Positions 992-39,252 of a DNA stretch of 64,000 bases are shown here, one piece after another; position 1 is the stretch's first letter; the number at the start of each line of letters is the position of its first letter. Source of the stretch: Sphingobium sp. V4 (lineage in GTDB: Bacteria > Pseudomonadota > Alphaproteobacteria > Sphingomonadales > Sphingomonadaceae); contig NZ_CP081002.1 of the NCBI RefSeq assembly GCF_029590555.1, positions 434,001 through 498,000 on the forward strand. The letters are read 5' to 3'. The notes beneath the pieces are model-generated. The model was not told the origin of the DNA, did no database searches, and saw nothing but the letters and a program-made list of their open reading frames with translations. The translations under genes were made by a program, and so were the position numbers.

Positions 992-3085
992 TCAGCCGAT
1001 TGTTCCGAGGCTGCGCAGCCGCGCCCGGGCATGAACCTCATTCTGCGACAGCACGACGGTTGCCGGTCGCACCCGTTCAATGATCGAGCGCACGAATGGG
1101 CGCAGCGGCGGACTGGTGAGCAGGCAGGGAATCTCGCCCTGGGTTGCGAAACGATCATAGGTCTCGCGAACGGCGGCGATGAACGCCTGGAGGCTGGATG
1201 GCGCCATTGCGAGATGGCGCTCGTCGCCCTGCCCGATAATGCTTTCCGCAAATGCCTCGTCCCACTGGCTGCCCAGCGTCACCACCGGAATGCTGCCGTC
1301 ATGGGTCTGCTGCGCGGAAATCTGGCGAGCGAGGCGGGCACGGACATGCTCCGTCACCTGGGTCAGGTTGGCGGTCATCGCGGTCGCCTCGGCGATGCCC
1401 TCCAGGATGGTGGGGATGTCGCGGATCGACACGCCTTCGGCCAGCAGGTTCTGCAACACGCGCTGCACCCCGGAAATGGAGATTCTCGTCGGTATCAGGT
1501 CGGCAATCAGCTTCTCAGCTTCCTTGTGGACCTCGTTCAGCAGCTTCTGGGTCTCCGCATAGGACAGCAGGTCGGCGATATTGTCCTTCACGATTTCGGT
1601 CAGATGGGTGGTAACGACGGTGCCGCAATCGACCACCGCCAGCCCACGGAACCCGGCCTCCTCGCGCATATCGCGGTCGATCCAGAGGGCCGGAAGCTGG
1701 AATACCGGCTCCTTTGTGGGTTCGCCCCTGATGCCCGGTTCCTGGCCAGAGGCGTTGATGACCAGCAGCTTGCCGATGCGCAATTCGCCGCGGGCGATCT
1801 CGGTCTCCTTGACATAGACCACATATTCATTGGCCTGGAGCGCCATATTGTCCAGGATGCGAACCGATGGCAGCACGAAGCCGAAATCGATCGCCATCTG
1901 GCGGCGAAGCGCACGGACCTGATCGTCGAGCCGCGGTTCGGCGCTCGCATCATTGATCATCGGCAGCAGGCCATAGCCCAGTTCGATCCGCAGCGCGTCG
2001 ATGGCAAGGGTGCGGGCGATGGGTTCCTCGACCTGCGCGACCTGCTGTCGCGCGGCGACTTCCTCGATGCGCGCCTGAATGGCCGCCGCCTCCGCCTTCC
2101 TCGTCATCGACCAGGCCAGCCAGCCGCAAATGCCGCCGAACAGGGCGAACGGCGCGAAGGGCAGGCCCGGCATCAGCGCCAGCATCAGCATCAGCGCGGC
2201 GACCACACCGAACGCCTTGGGATAGCGGCCGAGCTGCTCTCCCAGCGCCGCGCCGGTCTTGCCGGCAACCCCGCCCTTCGATACCAGCAGGCCGGCTGCG
2301 GTCGATACGATCAGCGCAGGAATCTGGCTGACCAGCCCGTCGCCGACAGTCAGGATGGTGTAGGTAGTGAAGGCCTCGCCAAAGGGCACGCCATGGATGG
2401 CGACGCCGATGATCAGGCCTACGACGATATTGATCGCCGTGATCAGCAATGCCGCAACGGCATCGCCCTTCACGAATTTCGACGCGCCGTCCATCGCGCC
2501 GTAGAAGCCGCTTTCGGCCTCGATCTCGGCGCGGCGTTCGCGCGCCTGCACCTCGGTGATCGTGCCGGCGTTCAGGTCTGCGTCGATCGCCATCTGCTTG
2601 CCGGGCATCGCGTCCAGGCTGAAGCGGGCGCCGACTTCGGCGATGCGCCCCGCGCCCTTGGTGATGACGACGAAGTTGATGACGATCAGGATGGCGAAGA
2701 TGGTGAGGCCGATCACCGTCTCCCCGCCCATCAGGAACTCGCCGAACGCTGCGATCACGCCGCCGGCGGCTTGGTGCCCCTCATGCCCATGGCCCAGGAT
2801 CAGCCGGGTCGAAGCCAGGTTGAGGCCGAGCCGCAACATCGTGACGATCAACAGGATCGTAGGGAAACTCGACAGCTGAAGCGGCTTGTCGATGAACAGC
2901 GCGGTCATCAGGATGAGCACCGACGCCGTGATCGACAGCGCCAGGCCCAGGTCCAGCATCCATGCCGGCATCGGCAGGATCAGCATCGCAATGATCCCCG
3001 TGACGCCCAGTGCCAGCGCCAGGTCGCGGCCGGGGCCGAGGCGCGCGATCATCTCGTCGAACTTTGCGGGGAGCTGGACTTTCAT
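992..3085 (-). CDS. flhA: Flagellar export gate protein FlhA
   Basis: 697 aa, normal FlhA length. The N-terminal half carries about eight membrane segments with the FHIPEP signature region (TMLRLGLNLASTR followed by the GHG loop near residues 82-103). The C-terminal half is the cytoplasmic nonameric ring domain that docks chaperone-cargo complexes. FlhA forms the proton-driven export gate with FlhB, FliP, FliQ and FliR, all encoded in this window. It lies 62 bases after the FlbD-like gene on the same strand, and the gap holds a 10-bp-stem hairpin. The ATG at 3085 gives a normal N terminus. Confidence 0.97.
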   Translation of the reverse strand: MKVQLPAKFDEMIARLGPGRDLALALGVTGIIAMLILPMPAWMLDLGLALSITASVLILMTALFIDKPLQLSSFPTILLIVTMLRLGLNLASTRLILGHGHEGHQAAGGVIAAFGEFLMGGETVIGLTIFAILIVINFVVITKGAGRIAEVGARFSLDAMPGKQMAIDADLNAGTITEVQARERRAEIEAESGFYGAMDGASKFVKGDAVAALLITAINIVVGLIIGVAIHGVPFGEAFTTYTILTVGDGLVSQIPALIVSTAAGLLVSKGGVAGKTGAALGEQLGRYPKAFGVVAALMLMLALMPGLPFAPFALFGGICGWLAWSMTRKAEAAAIQARIEEVAARQQVAQVEEPIARTLAIDALRIELGYGLLPMINDASAEPRLDDQVRALRRQMAIDFGFVLPSVRILDNMALQANEYVVYVKETEIARGELRIGKLLVINASGQEPGIRGEPTKEPVFQLPALWIDRDMREEAGFRGLAVVDCGTVVTTHLTEIVKDNIADLLSYAETQKLLNEVHKEAEKLIADLIPTRISISGVQRVLQNLLAEGVSIRDIPTILEGIAEATAMTANLTQVTEHVRARLARQISAQQTHDGSIPVVTLGSQWDEAFAESIIGQGDERHLAMAPSSLQAFIAAVRETYDRFATQGEIPCLLTSPPLRPFVRSIIERVRPATVVLSQNEVHARARLRSLGTIG

Positions 3086-3118: not shown

Positions 3119-3141
3119 CCTTCTCCCCGCGGGGGAGAAGG
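3119..3141. repeat. Inverted repeat/hairpin between the FlbD-like gene and flhA
   Basis: Perfect 10-bp arms (CCTTCTCCCC / GGGGAGAAGG) around a 3-base loop. It lies 34 bases upstream of flhA inside a presumed operon. It resembles dispersed hairpin repeats common in sphingomonads, and could weaken read-through into flhA or stabilise the upstream mRNA. Confidence 0.6.
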
Positions 3142-3147
3142 AAGAGA

Positions 3148-3591
3148 TCAATGCCGCAGCAGGCCCGCCGGCGGTGAGAAGTCATCTCTCAGGAACAAGC
3201 GCAGCTTGTTGCGGATCGTACGCACCGAAATGCCCAGCATCGCGGCGGCCGTGGTGCGATTGCCCCGGCAGCGATCGAGGGTCTGGAGGATCAGCGCGCG
3301 CTCGACATCGTCGACGCTGTGTCCGACCAGTTCCTCTACGGCTGCGGCCATCGCCTGGTTGGCCGCACGCTCGCCACGCAGCCGGGCGATCACGTCGGGC
3401 AGGTTCACCGCGACATCCACCACCACCAGCTCGCCCACGGTCCGGCGCCAATTTTCCAGCGCATTGCAGTCCGCCGTGCCGACCGCAATGCTGGCGGCGG
3501 ACCCGCGCACCATCTCGACGGCAAGACCCATCGTCTTGTTCAAATCGCCCACCAGCAGCAGGCGGGTCGGATCATGGTCTGAAACGAACAT
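3148..3591 (-). CDS. FlbD-like flagellar regulator lacking the AAA+ domain
   Basis: 147 aa. Residues ~9-80 look like the degenerate receiver of FlbD/FleQ (RLLLVGDLNKTMGLA near the start, no clear phospho-acceptor Asp set). Residues ~95-140 are a Fis-type helix-turn-helix (AAAMLGISVRTIRNKLR). The ~240-residue sigma54-interacting ATPase that separates these parts in ordinary FlbD (no GAFTGA, no Walker A) is absent, and there is no frameshift debris between them. The ATG at 3591 overlaps the fliN stop (TGATG), which sets the start and implies coupling. The likely role is a DNA-binding flagellar regulator that cannot activate sigma54. Its candidate sites are the palindromes at 5643, 18669 and 39180. 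Confidence 0.8.
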   Translation of the reverse strand: MFVSDHDPTRLLLVGDLNKTMGLAVEMVRGSAASIAVGTADCNALENWRRTVGELVVVDVAVNLPDVIARLRGERAANQAMAAAVEELVGHSVDDVERALILQTLDRCRGNRTTAAAMLGISVRTIRNKLRLFLRDDFSPPAGLLRH

Positions 3592-3950
3592 CAACGCTCC
3601 TGTCGCACAATTTCGGTAAGGGTGATGCCGAGCGCGCTGTCGATGAGGACGACTTCGCCGCGTGCGATCAGGCGGTTGTTGACGAAGATGTCGACCGGTT
3701 CACCCACGCGGCGGTCCAGTTCGACCACCATGCCAGGTTTCAGCCGCAGCAGTTCGCCAATGTCCATCCGCGCCCGGCCCAGGATCGCCTGCACCTTGAC
3801 CGGCACGTCGAACACTGCCTGAAGATCATCGGGCGCGGGCGGCGCGGTCGGACGCGGCGACCAATTGGGGTCGGCATTCATCTCCACATCATCGACGCCG
3901 TCGGTCAGATGGGCCGGCGAGAGTTGCCGAGGTTCCATATTTTCACTCAT
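3591..3950 (-). CDS. fliN: Flagellar motor switch protein FliN (first copy)
   Basis: About 119 aa from the ATG at 3950, which has a good AGGGG ribosome site. An in-frame ATG at 3965 overlaps the fliF stop (ATGA) and is the alternative start. The N-terminal ~40 residues are acidic and Pro-rich. The C-terminal ~75 residues are the SpoA/FliN domain (VPVKVQAILGRARMDIGELL, then GEPVDIFVNNRLIARGEVV). FliN forms the C-ring base and takes part in switching and export docking. A second, shorter FliN is encoded at 18740, while no FliM is in the window. Confidence 0.93.
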   Translation of the reverse strand: MSENMEPRQLSPAHLTDGVDDVEMNADPNWSPRPTAPPAPDDLQAVFDVPVKVQAILGRARMDIGELLRLKPGMVVELDRRVGEPVDIFVNNRLIARGEVVLIDSALGITLTEIVRQER

Positions 3951-3961
3951 TGCATCCCCTT

Positions 3962-5572
3962 TCATGCATTCATCCATTGCCGGATCACCGAGGCGGATTC
4001 CGCCGGTCCGGCGGCGATGGCGTCGCCGATGCGCTTCAGCGCGGAGACCTTGATCCGCCCGTCGATCTGGGCGAGCGCGATTTCCTCATCGAGCAGCGGC
4101 ACATCCTGCGCGCGGACTTCCTCCAGCTGGCGGATCGCTTCCTCGTCGCCATCGGCCGCACGCTGGGCGAGCGTGGCCATTTCCTCATTCTCCGCAGCCA
4201 GCAGATGTTCGACCGGCTCCACTTCGCCTTCGACAGGCATAACCTTTGGCCGCAACATGCGGATGGCGAACAGGACAACGCCACCGATCAGCACATATTT
4301 GGCAAGGTCGAGCAGGCCGTCGGCGGTGACACCGAAAGGCAGACCCTCGGCCGCGTCGTCGAGCTCGCCGGGCGCGGCAAAGCTCATATTCTCGACGACC
4401 ACGCTGTCGCCGCGTTCGGCATCGAAGCCCACTGCATTTTCCACCAGGCGCTGAAGCCGCTGCATCTCGCCCTGCGGCAGACCCTTGGGACCGCCGTCCA
4501 CCATCACCGCGACAGTCAGGCGCGACACCTTACCGGGCGAGCGGACACTCACCTTCTGGGTGCGGCTGTTCTGGTAGGTGATGTCCTCGGATGTTTCGTT
4601 GCGGGCGGAACGGCGGCTCTCGCCCCCCGTCCCGTTGATCGCAGCCTCATTGTCGGGCAACTGTGCGCCGACGGTCACGCCCTGCGCGCCCGCGCCGCTT
4701 TCGTCATTCTGATCGCTGGATTCGACTGTCACCTGATGGGCGACGACCTGGGTATCGGGATCGAATATCTCCGCCTCTTCACGCACCTGATCGCGCTCCA
4801 GCACGGCGGCAACCTCGGCGCGGACCTTACCGGCGCCCACGATTGGCGCCAACATGGCCTCGATCTCGGTCCTCAACTTGTTCTCGACGGAGGCCTGACG
4901 CTCGTCGATCTCGGATGAACCGGCGCTTCCGCTCTCGCCCGCCCGGGCCAGAAGCGCGCCCGACTGGTCGACGATCGACACGCTTTCGGGCGACAATTCG
5001 GGCACGGCCGATGCGACCAGGTGGCGAATGGCCTGCACCGATTCACCGGGGAGGCGGCCGGTAGTTTTGACCGTGACCGCTGCGGTCGCCTTGCGCCGCT
5101 CCGTCTCGAACATCGCGCGCTCCGGCATGACCAGATGCACTCGCGCCTTGGTGACGCGCTCCAGGCTTTCGATCGACCGGGACAGTTCCCCCTCGATGGC
5201 GCGGGTCTCGTTGAGCTTCGCGCGCGACGCCGACATGCCGAAGGGCTGTTCGGCGTCCAGCACGTCATAGCCGATCTTCCCGCCGAGCTGATCGCCGGCC
5301 ATGGCCATGCGCAGTTCCGGCAATTTGTCGACCGGCGCCATGACGGACGTGCCATCGGCAGAAATCTGGAACGGGACGCCCTGTCCCTTGAGCTTTTCGC
5401 CGATCGCCTGCGTGGCGGAGGGTTCCAGGTCGGTGTAAAGGAATCCCATCTCGCTCGATGGGCTTCGCAGAGCCAGATAGCCGATGCCCAGCAACAGGGC
5501 CGCGGCAACGCCCCCCATCAGCAAGGCGCGACGAGGGCCGATCTGCTCGATAAAATTCCGCAAAGCGTTCAA
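3962..5572 (-). CDS. fliF: Flagellar MS-ring protein FliF
   Basis: 536 aa, typical for FliF. An N-terminal membrane segment (~17-36) and a C-terminal one (~430-450) flank the periplasmic ring-building motifs (YscJ/FliF: LYTDLEPSATQAIGEKL, ARVHLVMPE). The C-terminal tail binds FliG. FliF makes the MS ring that houses the export gate. The start codon is TTG at 5572 with an AGAGG site 7 bases upstream. It has its own promoter: a TATAAT box at 5624-5629 with a 13-bp palindrome at 5643-5655. It is followed by fliN, the FlbD-like gene and flhA. Confidence 0.97.
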   Translation of the reverse strand: MNALRNFIEQIGPRRALLMGGVAAALLLGIGYLALRSPSSEMGFLYTDLEPSATQAIGEKLKGQGVPFQISADGTSVMAPVDKLPELRMAMAGDQLGGKIGYDVLDAEQPFGMSASRAKLNETRAIEGELSRSIESLERVTKARVHLVMPERAMFETERRKATAAVTVKTTGRLPGESVQAIRHLVASAVPELSPESVSIVDQSGALLARAGESGSAGSSEIDERQASVENKLRTEIEAMLAPIVGAGKVRAEVAAVLERDQVREEAEIFDPDTQVVAHQVTVESSDQNDESGAGAQGVTVGAQLPDNEAAINGTGGESRRSARNETSEDITYQNSRTQKVSVRSPGKVSRLTVAVMVDGGPKGLPQGEMQRLQRLVENAVGFDAERGDSVVVENMSFAAPGELDDAAEGLPFGVTADGLLDLAKYVLIGGVVLFAIRMLRPKVMPVEGEVEPVEHLLAAENEEMATLAQRAADGDEEAIRQLEEVRAQDVPLLDEEIALAQIDGRIKVSALKRIGDAIAAGPAESASVIRQWMNA

Positions 5573-5623: not shown

Positions 5624-5655
5624 ATTATAGGAGGATCAGCTAGGCAATAGTTGCC
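5624..5655 (-). promoter_or_regulatory. fliF promoter with ftr-like palindrome
   Basis: On the minus strand, CTCC-TATAAT (5624-5629) lies 51 bases before the fliF start. The palindrome GGCAATAGTTGCC (5643-5655) is centred 22.5 bases upstream of the -10 centre, where a -35 would be; no TTGACA-like -35 is seen. The GG-to-GC spacing is 8, not the 10 of a sigma54 promoter. The arms match the elements at 18669 and 39180. Confidence 0.6.
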
Positions 5656-7485: not shown

Positions 7486-7499
7486 CGATGGAGGATTGC

Positions 7500-10202
7500 T
7501 TGACGATAAATTTATCCAACGGCCTGGTCGGCCTGTCCCTGCTGGGAGGAACCAACGGCTTCACCTCCTATTATGCGTCGACGACCGACACGCCGGCAGT
7601 GATCGACGCGAAAAAAGCTTTCACCCTGCCGGAAACCACGCCGCCCTGGCAGGAGGAACCGAGCGACGCCCCGCTGAGCACCCAGATCGCGGCGATCAAG
7701 CGGCTGAAGACGATCATCGACACCAGTAGCGACAATGGGCTGGAGGATCTGCCCGACATCCAGACCGCCTTCACCACCTACAAGGCGCTGGACGCCTTGC
7801 GCCTGTTAGCCGACAGCGCAGCCAAGAAGACGACGTCTTCGACGGAACGGCTGGCGCTGCAAAAGATATTTGCCAAGGGGTTAAGCGACCTACAAACCTT
7901 TCTGGGACAGGCGGAAACCGATCTTCTGACCCTGAACTATGGGCTGGTCACGCGTCGATCGGAAAGCATCGGCATCGAGACGACCGACAGTTCGGGCAAG
8001 GTCTATGCCGAAGGCGTCAGCGCGACGCGCGACGGCGCCCTCGCCGGCCTGACTGGCAATGAAGTGTTCAGCGTCACACTCACGCGCGGCACGGCCACCG
8101 AAACGGTCACGGTGGATCTGTCGACCACGACACAGCCACCGACGCTGGATTCGGTTGCCGACGCCCTGAATGCCGCAATCGGGGCGACGCCCGCGCTTGA
8201 TGGCAGCGGCAATCCGATCCTGGATGCGGGCGGCAACCCGACCAGTCTGTGGAAGTCGCGATTCACGGTCGAGAAGAGCGGGGACACATGGGGTCTGGCC
8301 TTTACCGCAGCCGGTATCGAGAAGGCGTCGATCGATCAGGTCAACGCCACCGACGCGCTGATGATAGCCAGTGGCCGAACCGCCACGGACGGACCTACAT
8401 CGGCGCAGATATTCCGCGTGGACGATCCGGCGTCGGCGCTCGAAACCGAACGGCTGAGCACGATCAACGCCATCGACAGCAAGGCAACCGCCCAGGCTCA
8501 GGCCGTCGCGGCCGCCAATGCCGACGCCGATGACGAGGATGCAGCCGATCCCATCGTCTATGTCGGTACGACCGCCCGCGCGATCGCCACGGATGCCCAG
8601 GGCTTCAGCTATGTCGTCGGCACCACCGCCGGCGATCTGGGCAGCTCCCTGTCGGACGGCGATGACGACCTGTTCCTCACCAAGGTCGACAGCGAGGGCC
8701 GGACCGTGTGGCAGCGCAGCCTGGGCGCGGCCGGAACCGGCGAAGGCGCTGCAGTCACCATCGCCGCCAACGGTGATATCGTCGTCGCGGGCACGGTCAG
8801 CGGCGCCTTCACCGGCAGCGATGACAGCCAGACCGACATGCTCGTCGCGCGCTTCTCCGCCAACGGGACGCAGACTTTCGCCACGGCCATCCGGCAGGTC
8901 GGCAACGAAAGCGCCACCGCGCTCGCCGTCGGCGATGACGGCAGCCTTTATGTCGCGGGCCGCGCTTCCACGGGCGGTGGCGACGCCGTGCTCGTGCGGC
9001 TCGATGCGACCGGCAAGGTTCAGGAAAAGCGGACCATCGACAGCGGCGGGTCGGACTCGATCACCGCGCTGGCTATCGACGGGTCGGGCGAACTGCTGGC
9101 GCTTACCAGGGAGGGCGCCGATGCGACGCTGAGGCGGATCGATGCGCAGGCGTTGTCGACCGATCTTGGATCGGTCAGCCTCGGCGCAGTCGATGCCCGT
9201 GCGATCGCGGTATCGGACAGTCGCGAAATCGCGGTCGCCGGCGCTGCCAGCGTGGCGGTCGATGGCGATCAGGCCAATGGCATGACTGGCGGGCGCGATG
9301 CCTTTGTGACCCGGATCACGTCCGATTTCTCCTCGGCCAGTACGAGCTATATCGGCACCACCAGCGACGATCAGGCCGACAGCCTGGCCTATATGAACGG
9401 CGCACTCTATGTGGGTGGTCGCACCAATGGCGCGCTCGAAGGCACGAAAAGCGGCAAGGTCGACGGCTTCGTCGCCCGGATCGACACGACCACCGGCGCG
9501 GTTGCGGACGTGGACCAATGGGGTCTCGTCACGCACAGCGTCGAACCGGTGAAGATCACAGCCGTGACCGGCGGCGCGACCGCGCTGGGCGCGCTGGGCC
9601 TCGGCCGGGGATCGCTGAGCCCGACCGTATCGGCCACCATTTCCTCCCAGACCACGCTCAAGGAAGGCGACAAGTTCAGCCTGCGCGTCGATGGCGGCAC
9701 AGTACGCACCATCACCATCGGCAAAGATGAAAGCATGGCCACGCTGGCGCAGAAGATCCAGCGCATCACCGGAGTGAACGGCACCGCCACTACGGCGAAG
9801 GTCGATGGCGAGCAGGTGTTGCGCGTCGACGCCAAAACCGGACACAGCATCGAGCTGATCGCCGGCCCGGACGGCGGCGACGCGCTGGCCAAGCTGGGCA
9901 TGACCCCGATCCGGCTCGTCGCCCCGGCGCCCAAGGATCCCGATGCGCCAAAAGTGACGCCCGGCGGCACATACAGCCTCAACCTGAACGACATGCTCAA
10001 CCTGACCGACCTGAAGTCCGCGGGAGCGGCGCTGTCCCGGATCAATGCCGCCCTGTCGATGACGCAGAGCGCCTATCGATCGCTCTATTGGGATTCGTCC
10101 AAGGAAGCCCAGATCAACGGCACCGTGACCGGCGGCGGTTCCGTCTATCAGCAGGCCCGGCTTGCCCAGTATCAGGCGGCGCTCAGTCGCCTTTCCGTGT
10201 AA
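7500..10202 (+). CDS. Beta-propeller protein with flagellar axial (hook/flagellin-IN-like) features
   Basis: 900 aa from a TTG at 7500 with GGAGG 5 bases upstream; an in-frame ATG at 7488 is the alternative. Residues ~1-130 are helical. Residues ~175-240 and ~718-802 look like flagellin-hook IN repeats (e.g. DKFSLRVDGGTVRTITIG followed by MATLAQKIQRITG). Residues ~348-673 hold about six ~45-residue SBBP-type propeller repeats with a recurring YVVG/VVAG/YVAG strand and DxFLxKxDxxG. The last ~75 residues are helical (INAALSMTQSAYRSLYW ... LAQYQAALSRL), like the D0 end of an axial protein. No signal peptide is visible. It is followed by flgB after 14 bases. I infer export by the flagellar system with a surface-exposed propeller; the exact role is unknown. 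Confidence 0.65.
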   Translation: MTINLSNGLVGLSLLGGTNGFTSYYASTTDTPAVIDAKKAFTLPETTPPWQEEPSDAPLSTQIAAIKRLKTIIDTSSDNGLEDLPDIQTAFTTYKALDALRLLADSAAKKTTSSTERLALQKIFAKGLSDLQTFLGQAETDLLTLNYGLVTRRSESIGIETTDSSGKVYAEGVSATRDGALAGLTGNEVFSVTLTRGTATETVTVDLSTTTQPPTLDSVADALNAAIGATPALDGSGNPILDAGGNPTSLWKSRFTVEKSGDTWGLAFTAAGIEKASIDQVNATDALMIASGRTATDGPTSAQIFRVDDPASALETERLSTINAIDSKATAQAQAVAAANADADDEDAADPIVYVGTTARAIATDAQGFSYVVGTTAGDLGSSLSDGDDDLFLTKVDSEGRTVWQRSLGAAGTGEGAAVTIAANGDIVVAGTVSGAFTGSDDSQTDMLVARFSANGTQTFATAIRQVGNESATALAVGDDGSLYVAGRASTGGGDAVLVRLDATGKVQEKRTIDSGGSDSITALAIDGSGELLALTREGADATLRRIDAQALSTDLGSVSLGAVDARAIAVSDSREIAVAGAASVAVDGDQANGMTGGRDAFVTRITSDFSSASTSYIGTTSDDQADSLAYMNGALYVGGRTNGALEGTKSGKVDGFVARIDTTTGAVADVDQWGLVTHSVEPVKITAVTGGATALGALGLGRGSLSPTVSATISSQTTLKEGDKFSLRVDGGTVRTITIGKDESMATLAQKIQRITGVNGTATTAKVDGEQVLRVDAKTGHSIELIAGPDGGDALAKLGMTPIRLVAPAPKDPDAPKVTPGGTYSLNLNDMLNLTDLKSAGAALSRINAALSMTQSAYRSLYWDSSKEAQINGTVTGGGSVYQQARLAQYQAALSRLSV

Positions 10203-18662: not shown

Positions 18663-18719
18663 CTTATAGGCAATTTTTGCCGGGCGCCGGGCCTGATCCT
18701 ATAAAATTATTCCTATAAC
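18663..18719. promoter_or_regulatory. Divergent flgC / fliN promoter region with shared ftr-like palindrome
   Basis: The palindrome GGCAATTTTTGCC (18669-18681) lies between a minus-strand TATAAG (18663-18668) for flgC and plus-strand boxes TATAAA (18700-18705) and TATAAC (18714-18719), each preceded by CC, for fliN. The palindrome abuts the flgC -10 box but is ~28 or ~42 bases from the fliN boxes, so one bound protein could act differently on each side. Confidence 0.6.
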
Positions 18720-18739: not shown

Positions 18740-18973
18740 ATGTCGGTCCTCGAAGGTATCCCCATTGACCTGTCGATCGTGCTCGGTTCCACCGACCTGC
18801 CCATCCGGCAGGTGCTCAAGATGAGCCGCGGCGCGATGATCCCGCTCGACTGCGATCATAATGATCCCACGCGCGTCTATGTGAACAACGAACTGGTGGC
18901 GGAGGGCAAGATCCTGGTCGATGGCGAACATATGTCGCTGGAAATCACTCGCGTCATCCAGCGCAAGAGCTGA
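18740..18973 (+). CDS. fliN: Short FliN-family switch protein (second FliN)
   Basis: 77 aa, consisting almost only of the SpoA domain (IPIDLSIVLGSTDLPIRQVLKM, then RVYVNNELVAEGKILV). It lacks the acidic N-terminal arm of the copy at 3591. GGAG precedes the ATG at 18740. It begins the fliN-fliO-fliP unit, a common gene order (fliMNOP) with fliM missing. It may be the C-ring FliN or a FliN partner specialised for export docking. Confidence 0.92.
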   Translation: MSVLEGIPIDLSIVLGSTDLPIRQVLKMSRGAMIPLDCDHNDPTRVYVNNELVAEGKILVDGEHMSLEITRVIQRKS

Positions 18974-29900: not shown

Positions 29901-30030
29901 CAGATATATGCCTCACTTCCGGCTTCATGGGGGCATTAAAAACTGTCGGAAATATTTACATTCTGGGTCGGCCGCTTCATGCGATCGTCCGGGGCACGTC
30001 GCGATGCCCCGGTGATGATTGAGAGTGGGG

Positions 30031-32748
30031 ATGAAATTGTTGATACCGCCGCCATCAGGCGCTGGCGGGGCCCCTTCTGCTCGACTGGCGCCGGCCGTCC
30101 CCGCGCTGGTCGCCGTGGCGCTGATCATATGTGTGGCCGTCCTGATGGGGTGGTCCAGGGATAATCTAGGGATCGCCGGCTTCGGCCGCAGCGAGATCTT
30201 CATGCAACCCTGGACGGCGGTGGGCTGCATCGGGCTCAGCCTGTCCTTCTTCTGCGCTGCAACGGGCCGATATGGGGCCGCGCGCCTGATAGCGGTCGTG
30301 CCGTTGGCCATTTCGCTCATGGCCCTGTTCGAGGATTGGGCCGATCTGACGCTGACGATCGACCGCTGGCTCTTCCCCGACCATATCGAGCATCAGCCAC
30401 GCGTGAACCCCGGCAGGCCGGGACTGATGCCTGCCATTTCCACGCTGCTGCTGACCTGCGCGTCGCTTGCCACGACATCGCGGCACAATGCCGTGCAACG
30501 CATGGTAACTTTGCTCAGTTGCTTGGCCTTATCGACCGCCGTCATTTCCGGCACGCTGCTTCCGCTCGGCGTCAGTTCATTGGGGGAAGGCACCAGACGG
30601 GCGCTCATGTCAGTGCCCACAGCGTCCACCCTGATCGCGCTCGCCCTGGCCATCATCGAGCAGCGGCGTCATGTCGCCTGGCCGCGCAGTCCCCGTTGCG
30701 GTATCGGGAGCGGTACGCTCCAGTGGTTGCTGGCGCCCTGCGTCCTCCTGCCCGTGTCATCGGCGCTTTTGCAGCTTTGGACGTACAAAAATGGTCATGT
30801 GACCAAGGAAATGGCCGAAATCATCCAGGCAGCGATCCAGGTCAGCATATCCTGCCTGATCGTCGCCTGGGCCTGGATACGGATCGGTCGCGAAAGCACC
30901 ACCCGATGGGCGTTCAGCACCGCCATCGATTCCGCGCCGATCGCTATCACCGATATAGACGGCCGCATCATCCGCTGGTCGAAGGGCTGCGAAAGGCTTT
31001 ACGGATGGACAGCCCAGGATGCGCGAGGCCAGTGCAAGCACGCATTGACCAGGGCGCTTCTGCCCACCGGATCGCGCCTCCCCTTCGCGTCCCAGGCGCG
31101 CCAGGAGGCCGAGATCACGGAGCGGCATCGGGACGGAACGAGCCTGCGTGTCCTGGAATCGCGCCAGATCGTGCAGCCGCGGCCCGACATAGCGCCGATG
31201 GTGGTGCTGTCGATGACCGATATCACCGAACGTCAGCGTGCCGAGCAGGCCGTTCTGGCGAGCGAGGCTCGGCTTGCCTTTGCGGCGGACCTACACGAAC
31301 TGGGCCTGTTCGAATGGCGGCAATCGACCGACCAGATGCAAATGTCGCCTCATGCGGAGCGTCTCTTCGGTTTCCTGCCCGGCACGTTCAGTGGTGGCAT
31401 CGACGACTGGCGCCACCATGTGCGCGCGCATTTTGGCGCCGATATCCTTGCAGATCAGCCCCTGCCCGCAAGTTTCCATCATTGTTCCTTCCATCTGAAC
31501 GGCGCGTTGGCGGACGAACCGCTGATCGTCGAAGGCTCGATCTTCTTTTACGACGCGCCCGGCGATCAGGGGCCCTCGATGCTGGGCATCGTCATGGACG
31601 CGACCGAGCGCGCGCGCCGCACCGAAATGCTGGAGGCCCGCGAATTCGAGCTGCGCTCGATCCTGGAAACGGTGCCGGAAGCGATGATCACCGTGGACGA
31701 AACGGGGCGCGTCCGCTCCTTCTCGACGGCAGCCGAAAGGCTGTTCGGCTACAGCGCGGAGGAAATTACCGGCCACGATGTCCGCACATTGCTGCCCGAC
31801 TATGAGAAAACGGCTGTCTCGACGGACGGGGTGACGCCTCCGCTCAAGGCGTCGCAAGCCCAGACCACCGCCGGGCGCGACCGGCACGGCAACGCCATGC
31901 CGGTCGAACTGGTGGTCGGCGAAACCACGATCGGCACGGAACATATCTCCATCGCCTTCGTCCGCAGCCTGCGCGAACAGATCGCGACCCAGACGCGCCT
32001 CAACGAATTGCGGGAACAGTTGCTGCACGCGGCGCGGGTGAGCACCATGGGCGAAATGGGCGCCGGCCTCGCCCATGAACTCAATCAGCCCTTGACCGCG
32101 ACCGCCAATTTCCTGGGGGCCGCGCACATGAGATTGGGGATGGGCGCATCGCCGGACCAGGTCCGCGACCTGATCGCCCTCGCCAATGTCGAGGTGCTTC
32201 GCGCGGGCGAAATCATCCGCCGGATGCGCGCTTTCGTCGCCAAGGGGGAACTGGACATCCGATCCTGCTCGCTGAGCGAACTGATCGCGGATGCGCTGCA
32301 GCTGGTCTGGTCGGGAACCCGTCACTCGGGCGTCACACTCCATTACCAACCCAGCATCTCTGGTCCGGACATATTGGCCGACGCCGTCCAGATACAGCAA
32401 GTTTTCATCAACATAATCAACAATGCGCTCGAAACATTCGCCGTCCACCCGACGACCGGTGCCCGGATCATGATCTCGACGGTCGAGCACGCCGACGGCA
32501 CCGTCATGATCCGGTTCAGGGATAATGGCCCGGGCTTTCCGCCGGCCATCATAGGGCGACCGTTCGACGCCTTCATGTCGACCAGGGCTAACGGACTGGG
32601 TCTCGGCCTGTCGATCTGCCGCCGTATCGTCGAGGGTCATGGCGGCGCATTGACCCTCGCCAATGCCGCGGACGGCGGCGCGATCATAGAATTTTCTCTG
32701 CCGATCTATCGGGAGTCGGGCGATGGCGAAATGAAGGCGGCACGATGA
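30031..32748 (+). CDS. Membrane PAS-domain sensor histidine kinase, FixL-type
   Basis: 905 aa from the ATG at 30031; a TTG at 30019 would add four residues. About eight membrane segments in residues 20-280 form an unassigned sensor. Three PAS domains follow (~295-410, ~420-535, ~545-655), then a FixL-like HisKA (MGEMGAGLAHELNQPLTATA, His near 681) and a HATPase domain (INIINNALE, DNGPGF, GLGLGLSICRRIVE). The receptor for an unknown signal. Its stop overlaps the response-regulator start (ATGA), so the pair is co-translated. A heme PAS is not evident. Confidence 0.92.
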   Translation: MKLLIPPPSGAGGAPSARLAPAVPALVAVALIICVAVLMGWSRDNLGIAGFGRSEIFMQPWTAVGCIGLSLSFFCAATGRYGAARLIAVVPLAISLMALFEDWADLTLTIDRWLFPDHIEHQPRVNPGRPGLMPAISTLLLTCASLATTSRHNAVQRMVTLLSCLALSTAVISGTLLPLGVSSLGEGTRRALMSVPTASTLIALALAIIEQRRHVAWPRSPRCGIGSGTLQWLLAPCVLLPVSSALLQLWTYKNGHVTKEMAEIIQAAIQVSISCLIVAWAWIRIGRESTTRWAFSTAIDSAPIAITDIDGRIIRWSKGCERLYGWTAQDARGQCKHALTRALLPTGSRLPFASQARQEAEITERHRDGTSLRVLESRQIVQPRPDIAPMVVLSMTDITERQRAEQAVLASEARLAFAADLHELGLFEWRQSTDQMQMSPHAERLFGFLPGTFSGGIDDWRHHVRAHFGADILADQPLPASFHHCSFHLNGALADEPLIVEGSIFFYDAPGDQGPSMLGIVMDATERARRTEMLEAREFELRSILETVPEAMITVDETGRVRSFSTAAERLFGYSAEEITGHDVRTLLPDYEKTAVSTDGVTPPLKASQAQTTAGRDRHGNAMPVELVVGETTIGTEHISIAFVRSLREQIATQTRLNELREQLLHAARVSTMGEMGAGLAHELNQPLTATANFLGAAHMRLGMGASPDQVRDLIALANVEVLRAGEIIRRMRAFVAKGELDIRSCSLSELIADALQLVWSGTRHSGVTLHYQPSISGPDILADAVQIQQVFINIINNALETFAVHPTTGARIMISTVEHADGTVMIRFRDNGPGFPPAIIGRPFDAFMSTRANGLGLGLSICRRIVEGHGGALTLANAADGGAIIEFSLPIYRESGDGEMKAAR

Positions 32749-39162: not shown

Positions 39163-39198
39163 ATTATAGGATGAACCGACCCGGCAGCTTTTGCCGGG
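39163..39198 (-). promoter_or_regulatory. flbT promoter with perfect ftr-like palindrome
   Basis: CATCC-TATAAT on the minus strand (39163-39168), 42 bases before flbT. CCCGGCA-GCTTT-TGCCGGG (39180-39198) is a perfect 7-5-7 palindrome centred 23.5 bases upstream of the -10 centre, about 1 base from the fliF arrangement. The divergent flgE promoter lies ~60 bases to the right. Confidence 0.65.
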
Positions 39199-39246: not shown

Positions 39247-39252
39247 TACAAT
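39247..39252 (+). promoter_or_regulatory. Predicted -10 box of flgE
   Basis: CTCC-TACAAT on the plus strand, 57 bases before flgE. The divergent palindrome at 39180-39198 is centred about 60 bases upstream. Confidence 0.4.

Follow-up and report, generated by a model that had tools for sequence, protein, structure and literature searches.

A sphingomonad FlbD orthologue without its AAA+ domain, with a probable new role at ordinary flagellar promoters

The flagellar gene cluster analysed here encodes a 147-aa protein that, judged by its sequence and gene position, is likely to be FlbD in its usual place, an orthologue that no longer depends on sigma54, and that probably now serves as a small, ordinary DNA-binding regulator. 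The window, meaning the whole stretch of DNA that was analysed (64,000 nucleotides from Sphingobium sp. V4, contig NZ_CP081002.1, positions 434,001 to 498,000), lies on C2 (1.25 Mb) of the 4.5-Mb genome. The gene, its parts and its neighbours are as follows.

3148..3591, minus strand: flbD, a half-receiver FlbD of 147 aa without AAA+ domain (ORF call, HTH_8, NF050807 alignment, relatives)
3376..3567, minus strand: first half of a degenerate receiver, beta1 to alpha3, residues 9-72 (NF050807 alignment and AF2 model)
3184..3315, minus strand: Fis/NtrC-type HTH, residues 93-136 (Pfam, AF2 model, Fis matches)
3591..3977, minus strand: fliN, whose stop overlaps the flbD start as TGATG
3962..5572, minus strand: fliF, upstream and in the same gene run as flbD
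992..3085, minus strand: flhA

The gene order is fliG-fliH-fliF-fliN-[flbD]-flhA, with flbD starting at the ATG at 3591; a TTG at 3594 would lengthen the protein by one residue. The overlap with fliN fits translational coupling, as the sequence-only reading proposed, and the flagellar operon position given there was borne out. Between flbD and flhA lies a near-perfect inverted repeat, CTTCTCCCCGCGGGGGAGAAG, at 3120-3140 and without a T run; no second copy was found within the window at 3 mismatches.

Pfam analysis of the 147-aa protein revealed HTH_8 as the sole match above cut-off (residues 93-131, E 5e-14). Alignment with the NCBIfam FlbD model NF050807 (454 positions) placed the HTH at model positions 382-442 and, weakly (E 7e-4), the N-terminus at positions 2-79, and these two stretches indicate a deletion that runs from inside the receiver to just 5' of the HTH. 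The score of 82 bits is below the equivalog cut-off of 750 bits. Neither Pfam nor NF050807 detected an AAA+ domain with GAFTGA, Walker A and Walker B, or any remnant of one, which confirms the loss described from the sequence. The AF2 model, of moderate quality (mean pLDDT 78, pTM 0.43), showed three beta-alpha units (strands at 9-15, 34-38 and 56-62, helices at 17-28, 44-52 and 64-71), a linker helix and further helices leading into the HTH. According to this model the receiver is halved, its second half missing. The earlier description of a retained FlbD-type receiver and Fis-type HTH was right for the HTH and needs correction for the receiver, which is incomplete. A PDB fold search returned nothing at E <= 0.001; its top matches were Fis and NtrC-type HTH domains.

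A database search covering proteins of 0.55 to 1.75 times the query length yielded at least 129 relatives, with lengths of 93-190 aa among the 120 listed. Sphingobium sp. TCM1 encodes a protein identical to that of the window. Six half-receiver pairs gave dN/dS values of 0.04-0.16, indicating purifying selection. These similar-length relatives, the TCM1 protein and the dN/dS values mark the short flbD, on sequence grounds, as a real gene, neither chance nor sequencing error. Values for other pairs were 0.04-0.21 for full-length proteins with a dead motor (defined below), 0.18 and 0.31 for AAA-less proteins with a whole receiver, and 0.22 for an HTH-only pair, whose N-terminal part gave 0.69 over a region partly outside the ORF. 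Progressive shortening, down to 82 aa, could be taken as the mark of a decaying pseudogene. This reading is very improbable given the low dN/dS values, the 27 positions that are invariant across 91 proteins (26 of them from residue 88 onward) and the conservation of a DNA dyad alongside the gene.

To describe the distribution of FlbD forms, we scanned named genomes, which gave 243 related stretches, and kept the best 80 loci; since these were picked by similarity to short forms, they are a biased sample. All 80 have flbD flanked by fliN and flhA, with the three genes on one strand. They comprised 45 full-length proteins with both catalytic motifs lost, 23 with a half receiver, 7 AAA-less with a whole receiver, 3 consisting of nearly the HTH only, and 2 intact. 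The dead class was first defined as lacking either motif, and each of its 45 members lacks both. A strict regular expression for the receiver second half recognised just 12 of 25 outgroup frames and therefore did not serve for counting. When 199 genomes were sampled evenly from the family (the best 28 first-look candidates being scored in many genomes), 18 gave an FlbD-type HTH below E 1e-29, with the match ranked after them at 3e-13: 8 short, 5 full-length without GAFTGA and 5 intact-type. Most of the family in this sample shows no FlbD, and some members retain an intact one. One of the intact-type proteins, L149, had been taken for a short form; it is broken over frames and was dropped as such. 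Among genomes of the same genus, 3 of 36 had a match, two with a half receiver and one (G032) AAA-less with a whole receiver. In the locus of Sphingomonas melonis AS2.3 (L071), a strain with the short form, flhA at 10477-11370 matches over 298 residues in one frame (a 510-aa open frame), as if the gene were interrupted in this assembly.

Examination of the full-length proteins refined the earlier picture, as the AAA+ domain already looks catalytically dead in sphingomonad relatives that keep it. The 80 loci hold 47 full-length FlbDs, of which 45 lack both the GAFTGA Thr (replaced by Pro in 29, Ala in 7, a gap in 5, Glu in 3 and Asp in 1) and the Walker B Asp (Arg in 43 and Ala in 2, one Ala in a poorly aligned stretch); six of the 45 additionally have Arg for the Walker A Lys. 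The two intact loci, L119 and L120, have GAFSGA with DE. Other families of the order kept GAFTGA, DE and the Walker A Lys in 20 of 21 FlbD loci, the exception being L028. This motif census left out L024 and L028 (both AAA-less), L046, L047 and L050 (all other activators) and L048 and L049 (second matches of included loci), and counted its 22 rows as 20 loci because L131 and L132 are second copies; L028 is added to these in the total of 21. L028 comes from a draft genome (G060) of another family of the order and encodes an AAA-less FlbD with a whole receiver, with no flhA match in its 3.2-kb locus; its AAA+ loss is apparently independent of that in the sphingomonad family.

Phylogenetic analysis of FlhA from 79 of the 80 loci (L071 was omitted for its short flhA frame) revealed that the forms are nested and that AAA-less forms occur in two places. 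Half-receiver and HTH-only forms made up one group (support 98.5), joined to the whole-receiver AAA-less L076, L077 and L079, and HTH-only forms arose twice within the tree. A comparison of one with two AAA+ losses gave an AU p of 0.056, which favours two and does not formally reject a single loss. In many sphingomonads the FlbD motor seems to have been disarmed first, by loss of the GAFTGA Thr and the Walker B Asp, and removed later, probably at least twice.

The half-receiver clade would also have lost, with the second half of the receiver, the FlbD partner FliX. FliX was found in 0 of 26 genomes with half-receiver or HTH-only FlbD, 7 of 7 with AAA-less whole-receiver FlbD, 14 of 15 with dead full-length FlbD and 2 of 2 with intact FlbD, in 50 named genomes, which cover 48 loci out of 78 of sphingomonad type as well as L119 and L120 (Fisher p 2e-13); the 26 genomes without FliX are one clade, and the pattern is thus essentially one event. 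A set of 23 genomes, partly of the same species, gave 0/10, 1/2, 3/5 and 5/6 in the same class order. The genome of the window (G000) showed no FliX match. A possible second case of receiver-FliX co-loss is G216, which lacks FliX and has a full-length FlbD (frame L144, which looks the same as Blastomonas aquatica L126) with a scrambled receiver second half. Counter-examples came from Pacificimonas (L097/L138, and G158 with the frame of L097), which has no FliX match and an intact-looking receiver; either it breaks the link or its FliX is too diverged for the model. No FliX match was obtained either in G117 (intact FlbD) or in G060 (whole receiver; genome 85% complete), and apparent absences may generally hide such diverged proteins. 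FliX outlives the ATPase domain and, in the main clade, does not outlive the receiver second half, which bears on its site of action.

The sequence-only reading had set its proposal against a full-length FlbD and rpoN elsewhere in the genome. rpoN is present, on C1, which counts against the proposal; a full-length FlbD is absent from the whole genome (best score 333 of 750 bits with NF050807), which counts for it. The sigma54-activator domain gave 8 matches in the genome, 6 of them strong and all six on C1. A second flhA and six rod/hook-family matches revealed a second flagellar cluster on C1, adjoined by a 419-aa activator with a Sigma54_activat domain, GSFTGA and LFLDE, which we take to be FleQ-like. 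A genome-wide search for the exact sigma54 pattern TGGCACGn4TTGC found 5 sites, all on C1 and 3 of them in its flagellar cluster, and none on C2; the reversed-pattern control gave 2. A matrix based on the sigma54 consensus (maximum 20.1) was applied to the C1 cluster as positive control, where three sites reached 20.1 and one 17.6. The same matrix found one site of 16.5 inside a called ORF (L163:17527) and one of 13.3 in an 84-kb region of C2, and three of 12.8-14.4 in the second flagellar stretch of C2 (L210). When the 20-kb flbD loci were scanned, no group, intact included, had more sigma54 sites than one first-order simulation; this result is uninformative because these loci hold mainly early genes. 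Apparently, one genome has a sigma54-type flagellum on C1 and a sigma54-free one on C2. The second cluster occupies the stretch C1:2360001-2400000 (L164, L165), where the sigma54 sites are near-perfect and a separate AAA+ activator is encoded.

These results bear on two readings that keep sigma54. In one, the 419-aa activator of C1 governs the two flagellar systems alike, and the short FlbD is a remnant or has an accessory part; the activator is intact, rpoN is present and one fair sigma54-like site exists on C2, but the confinement of the exact sites to C1 and the purifying selection on flbD in relatives make this improbable. In the other, the short FlbD recruits another AAA+ activator in trans to sigma54 promoters as a hetero-oligomer. 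Direct action of a mutant NtrC on FlbD-sigma54 complexes has been proposed for Caulobacter in a passage of PMC12421884; with the AAA+ surface gone and no exact sigma54 site on C2, a hetero-oligomer here is hardly credible. The proposal that the trimmed FlbD works by other means, on ordinary promoters, is supported by the absence of a full-length FlbD from the genome, by the lack of exact sigma54 sites on C2 and by a dyad conserved at the -35 region of promoters with TATAAT. The sites in the window are listed below.

5643..5655, minus strand: dyad GGCAACTATTGCC preceding fliF, within the -35 region; putative FlbD operator
5624..5629, minus strand: fliF -10 element TATAAT, 13 bp after the dyad
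18669..18681, plus strand: dyad GGCAATTTTTGCC between flgC (minus) and fliN-like/fliO/fliP (plus), with TATAAA at 18700-18705, 18 bp away
39180..39198, no strand: perfect 19-bp dyad CCCGGCAGCTTTTGCCGGG between flbT-fliI (minus) and flgE (plus)
39163..39168, minus strand: flbT -10 element TATAAT, 14 bp from the dyad core
39247..39252, plus strand: flgE -10-like element TACAAT

The dyad was first spotted by eye at 39180 and then tested. Looking for perfect dyads of 6 bp that recur yielded no usable result. In the window the bare core GGCAn5TGCC is about as frequent as expected (3 seen, 2.2 expected), and it is no commoner than scrambled cores. The case for it as an operator is one of position, conservation and its composite with TATAAT. 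The fourth core site of the genome lies between flgF and fliL, at about C2:1225389, where FliL, FliM and a rod/hook-family protein were confirmed. Three of the four dyads are shared between an early operon and rod/hook genes that run the opposite way, so a single dimer bound there could repress transcription in one direction and aid it in the other.

A dyad upstream of fliF was sought in 79 loci (L079 was too short). CGGCAn5TGCCG was exact in 45 (41 dead, 2 whole-receiver, 2 intact), and the best-scoring site was taken in the remaining 34. In the 26 half-receiver and HTH-only loci GGCAn5TGCC lies 77-85 bp before the fliF start, apart from the L066-L075 edges and from L073 and L074, where it is 207 and 141 bp before the extrapolated start. 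L076 and L077 have GGCAn5TTCC. Another 14 loci with intact FlbD were examined, and the GGCAn5TGCC core is present upstream of fliF in 13. Against a matrix from the dead-FlbD sites, half-receiver and HTH-only sites scored low (-3.5 to 8.1 of 17.7) because their outer bases differ, the TCM1 copy of the window site being lowest at -3.5. The identity of 1.00 over the 8 dyad columns is partly circular, as the site was located by a regular expression on those columns.

An exact TATAAT follows the dyad by 11-15 bp in all 26 half-receiver and HTH-only loci, and at the -35 position of these no more than 2 of 6 bases agree with TTGACA. Dead full-length loci have a -10-like hexamer in 44 of 45 cases (13-16 bp after the dyad in 42 of these, 31-33 bp in 2), and in six whole-receiver AAA-less loci it follows after 12 bp in 2 and 31-33 bp in 4. 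The composite GGCAn5TGCC-n7..17-TATAAT had 22 occurrences across 804 kb, taken from 11 regions in 10 genomes (7 with short and 3 with dead FlbD), compared with none in each of 6 Markov-2 simulations and 0-2 for nine scrambled cores. The 40-kb C1 cluster had none and 14 loci with intact FlbD had one. All 22 stand before early operons (fliF 10, fliL 9, flbT 3), and no TTAA occurs in any of these promoters from 60 bp upstream to 20 bp downstream.

We infer by analogy that the dyad is the ftr element of Caulobacter. The half receiver with its Fis-type HTH would most likely bind as a dimer to this ftr-type site, which would occupy the -35 region of TATAAT promoters of the early operons fliF, fliLM and flbT-fliI, with a similar site at wider spacing before fliN-like/fliO/fliP; such promoters presumably use sigma70. 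Since the protein has no ATPase, C2 has no exact sigma54 site and a dyad stands where the -35 box would be, a small dimeric regulator of sigma70-type promoters is the simplest reading. The dyad geometry fits a class II-type sigma70 activator.

The direction of control is a closer question. We prefer, at about even probability, an activator that replaces -35 recognition; the absence of both -35 boxes and TTAA elements favours it, although a missing -35 box is expected under repression as well. Occlusion with autorepression, as at Caulobacter ftr4, is a possibility that we hold as somewhat doubtful. In its pure form, to which we give similarly tentative credence, ftr4-type occlusion of fliF and other early operons would be the sole ancestral function retained, and another factor would activate. 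Passages in PMC3096577 and PMC3930126 describe repression of fliF by Caulobacter FlbD through ftr4, and the fliF-upstream dyad here matches that role. The dyad covers the -35 region, flbD lies downstream of fliF in the same gene run, and the site survives even beside HTH-only proteins of 82-95 aa (L073, L074, L107); the ancestral ftr4 role and this survival favour occlusion. Against a pure autorepressor, with neither a -35 hexamer nor a TTAA element, nothing visible would activate these promoters.

The history that we on balance believe is that sphingomonad FlbD changed sigma factor on an unchanged operator. The fliF dyad would have become a -35-replacing sigma70 element, the ATPase would have died and then been excised, probably at least twice, and FliX would have been lost once its docking face on the receiver second half had vanished, with living species preserving every stage. 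If true, this is an unusually complete record of the sigma54-to-sigma70 rewiring of a conserved developmental circuit, from disarmed motor through motor removed and receiver halved to a nearly bare HTH, the upstream dyad being retained throughout.

The protein shares with the sigma54 activator FlbD of Caulobacter crescentus the gene position, the HTH family, the first half of a degenerate receiver and the dyad upstream of fliF, but it has no AAA+ domain, half a receiver, no FliX and TATAAT instead of -24/-12 promoters. RegA, PrrA and ActR are response regulators composed of a receiver and a Fis-type HTH, likewise without AAA+; the protein here, in contrast, derives from FlbD and its receiver is degenerate and halved, so it lacks the complete receiver of that family. 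Membership of the whole-receiver short forms in the RegA family was rejected, since all seven named ones sit between fliN and flhA. Fis, a nucleoid protein, matches the HTH in sequence and fold (PDB 1FIP and others), whereas here there are few, flagellar sites and an extra N-terminal half-receiver. The nearest precedent among enhancer-binding proteins that abandoned sigma54 is Caulobacter NtrC, which, like that of Rhodobacter capsulatus, lacks GAFTGA and acts at sigma70 promoters according to a passage in PMC10274813. NtrC keeps the AAA+ fold, whereas in FlbD substitutions apparently disarmed the fold before it was lost.

Among the matches listed in the open-licence literature, none described an FlbD without AAA+ domain or a sphingomonad FlbD that has lost GAFTGA. 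FlbD of Sphingomonas sp. WG is treated as a sigma54 activator in a passage of PMC8921679; FlbD of the sphingomonad strain ATCC 31555 (L130), which may differ from WG, has GAFPGA and an Arg in Walker B. A sphingomonad flbD annotation should not be read as sigma54 control.

Three further genes of the window stood out. A protein of about 900 aa without Pfam match (7488-10202, plus strand), divergent from fliG, occurs at the same place and with 44-87% identity in nine further flagellar clusters, whose FlbD is short or dead. A 77-aa FliN/FliM C-domain protein (18740-18973, plus strand) precedes fliO-fliP, besides the fliN at 3591-3977. A large multi-PAS histidine kinase (30019-32748, plus strand) adjoins flaF.
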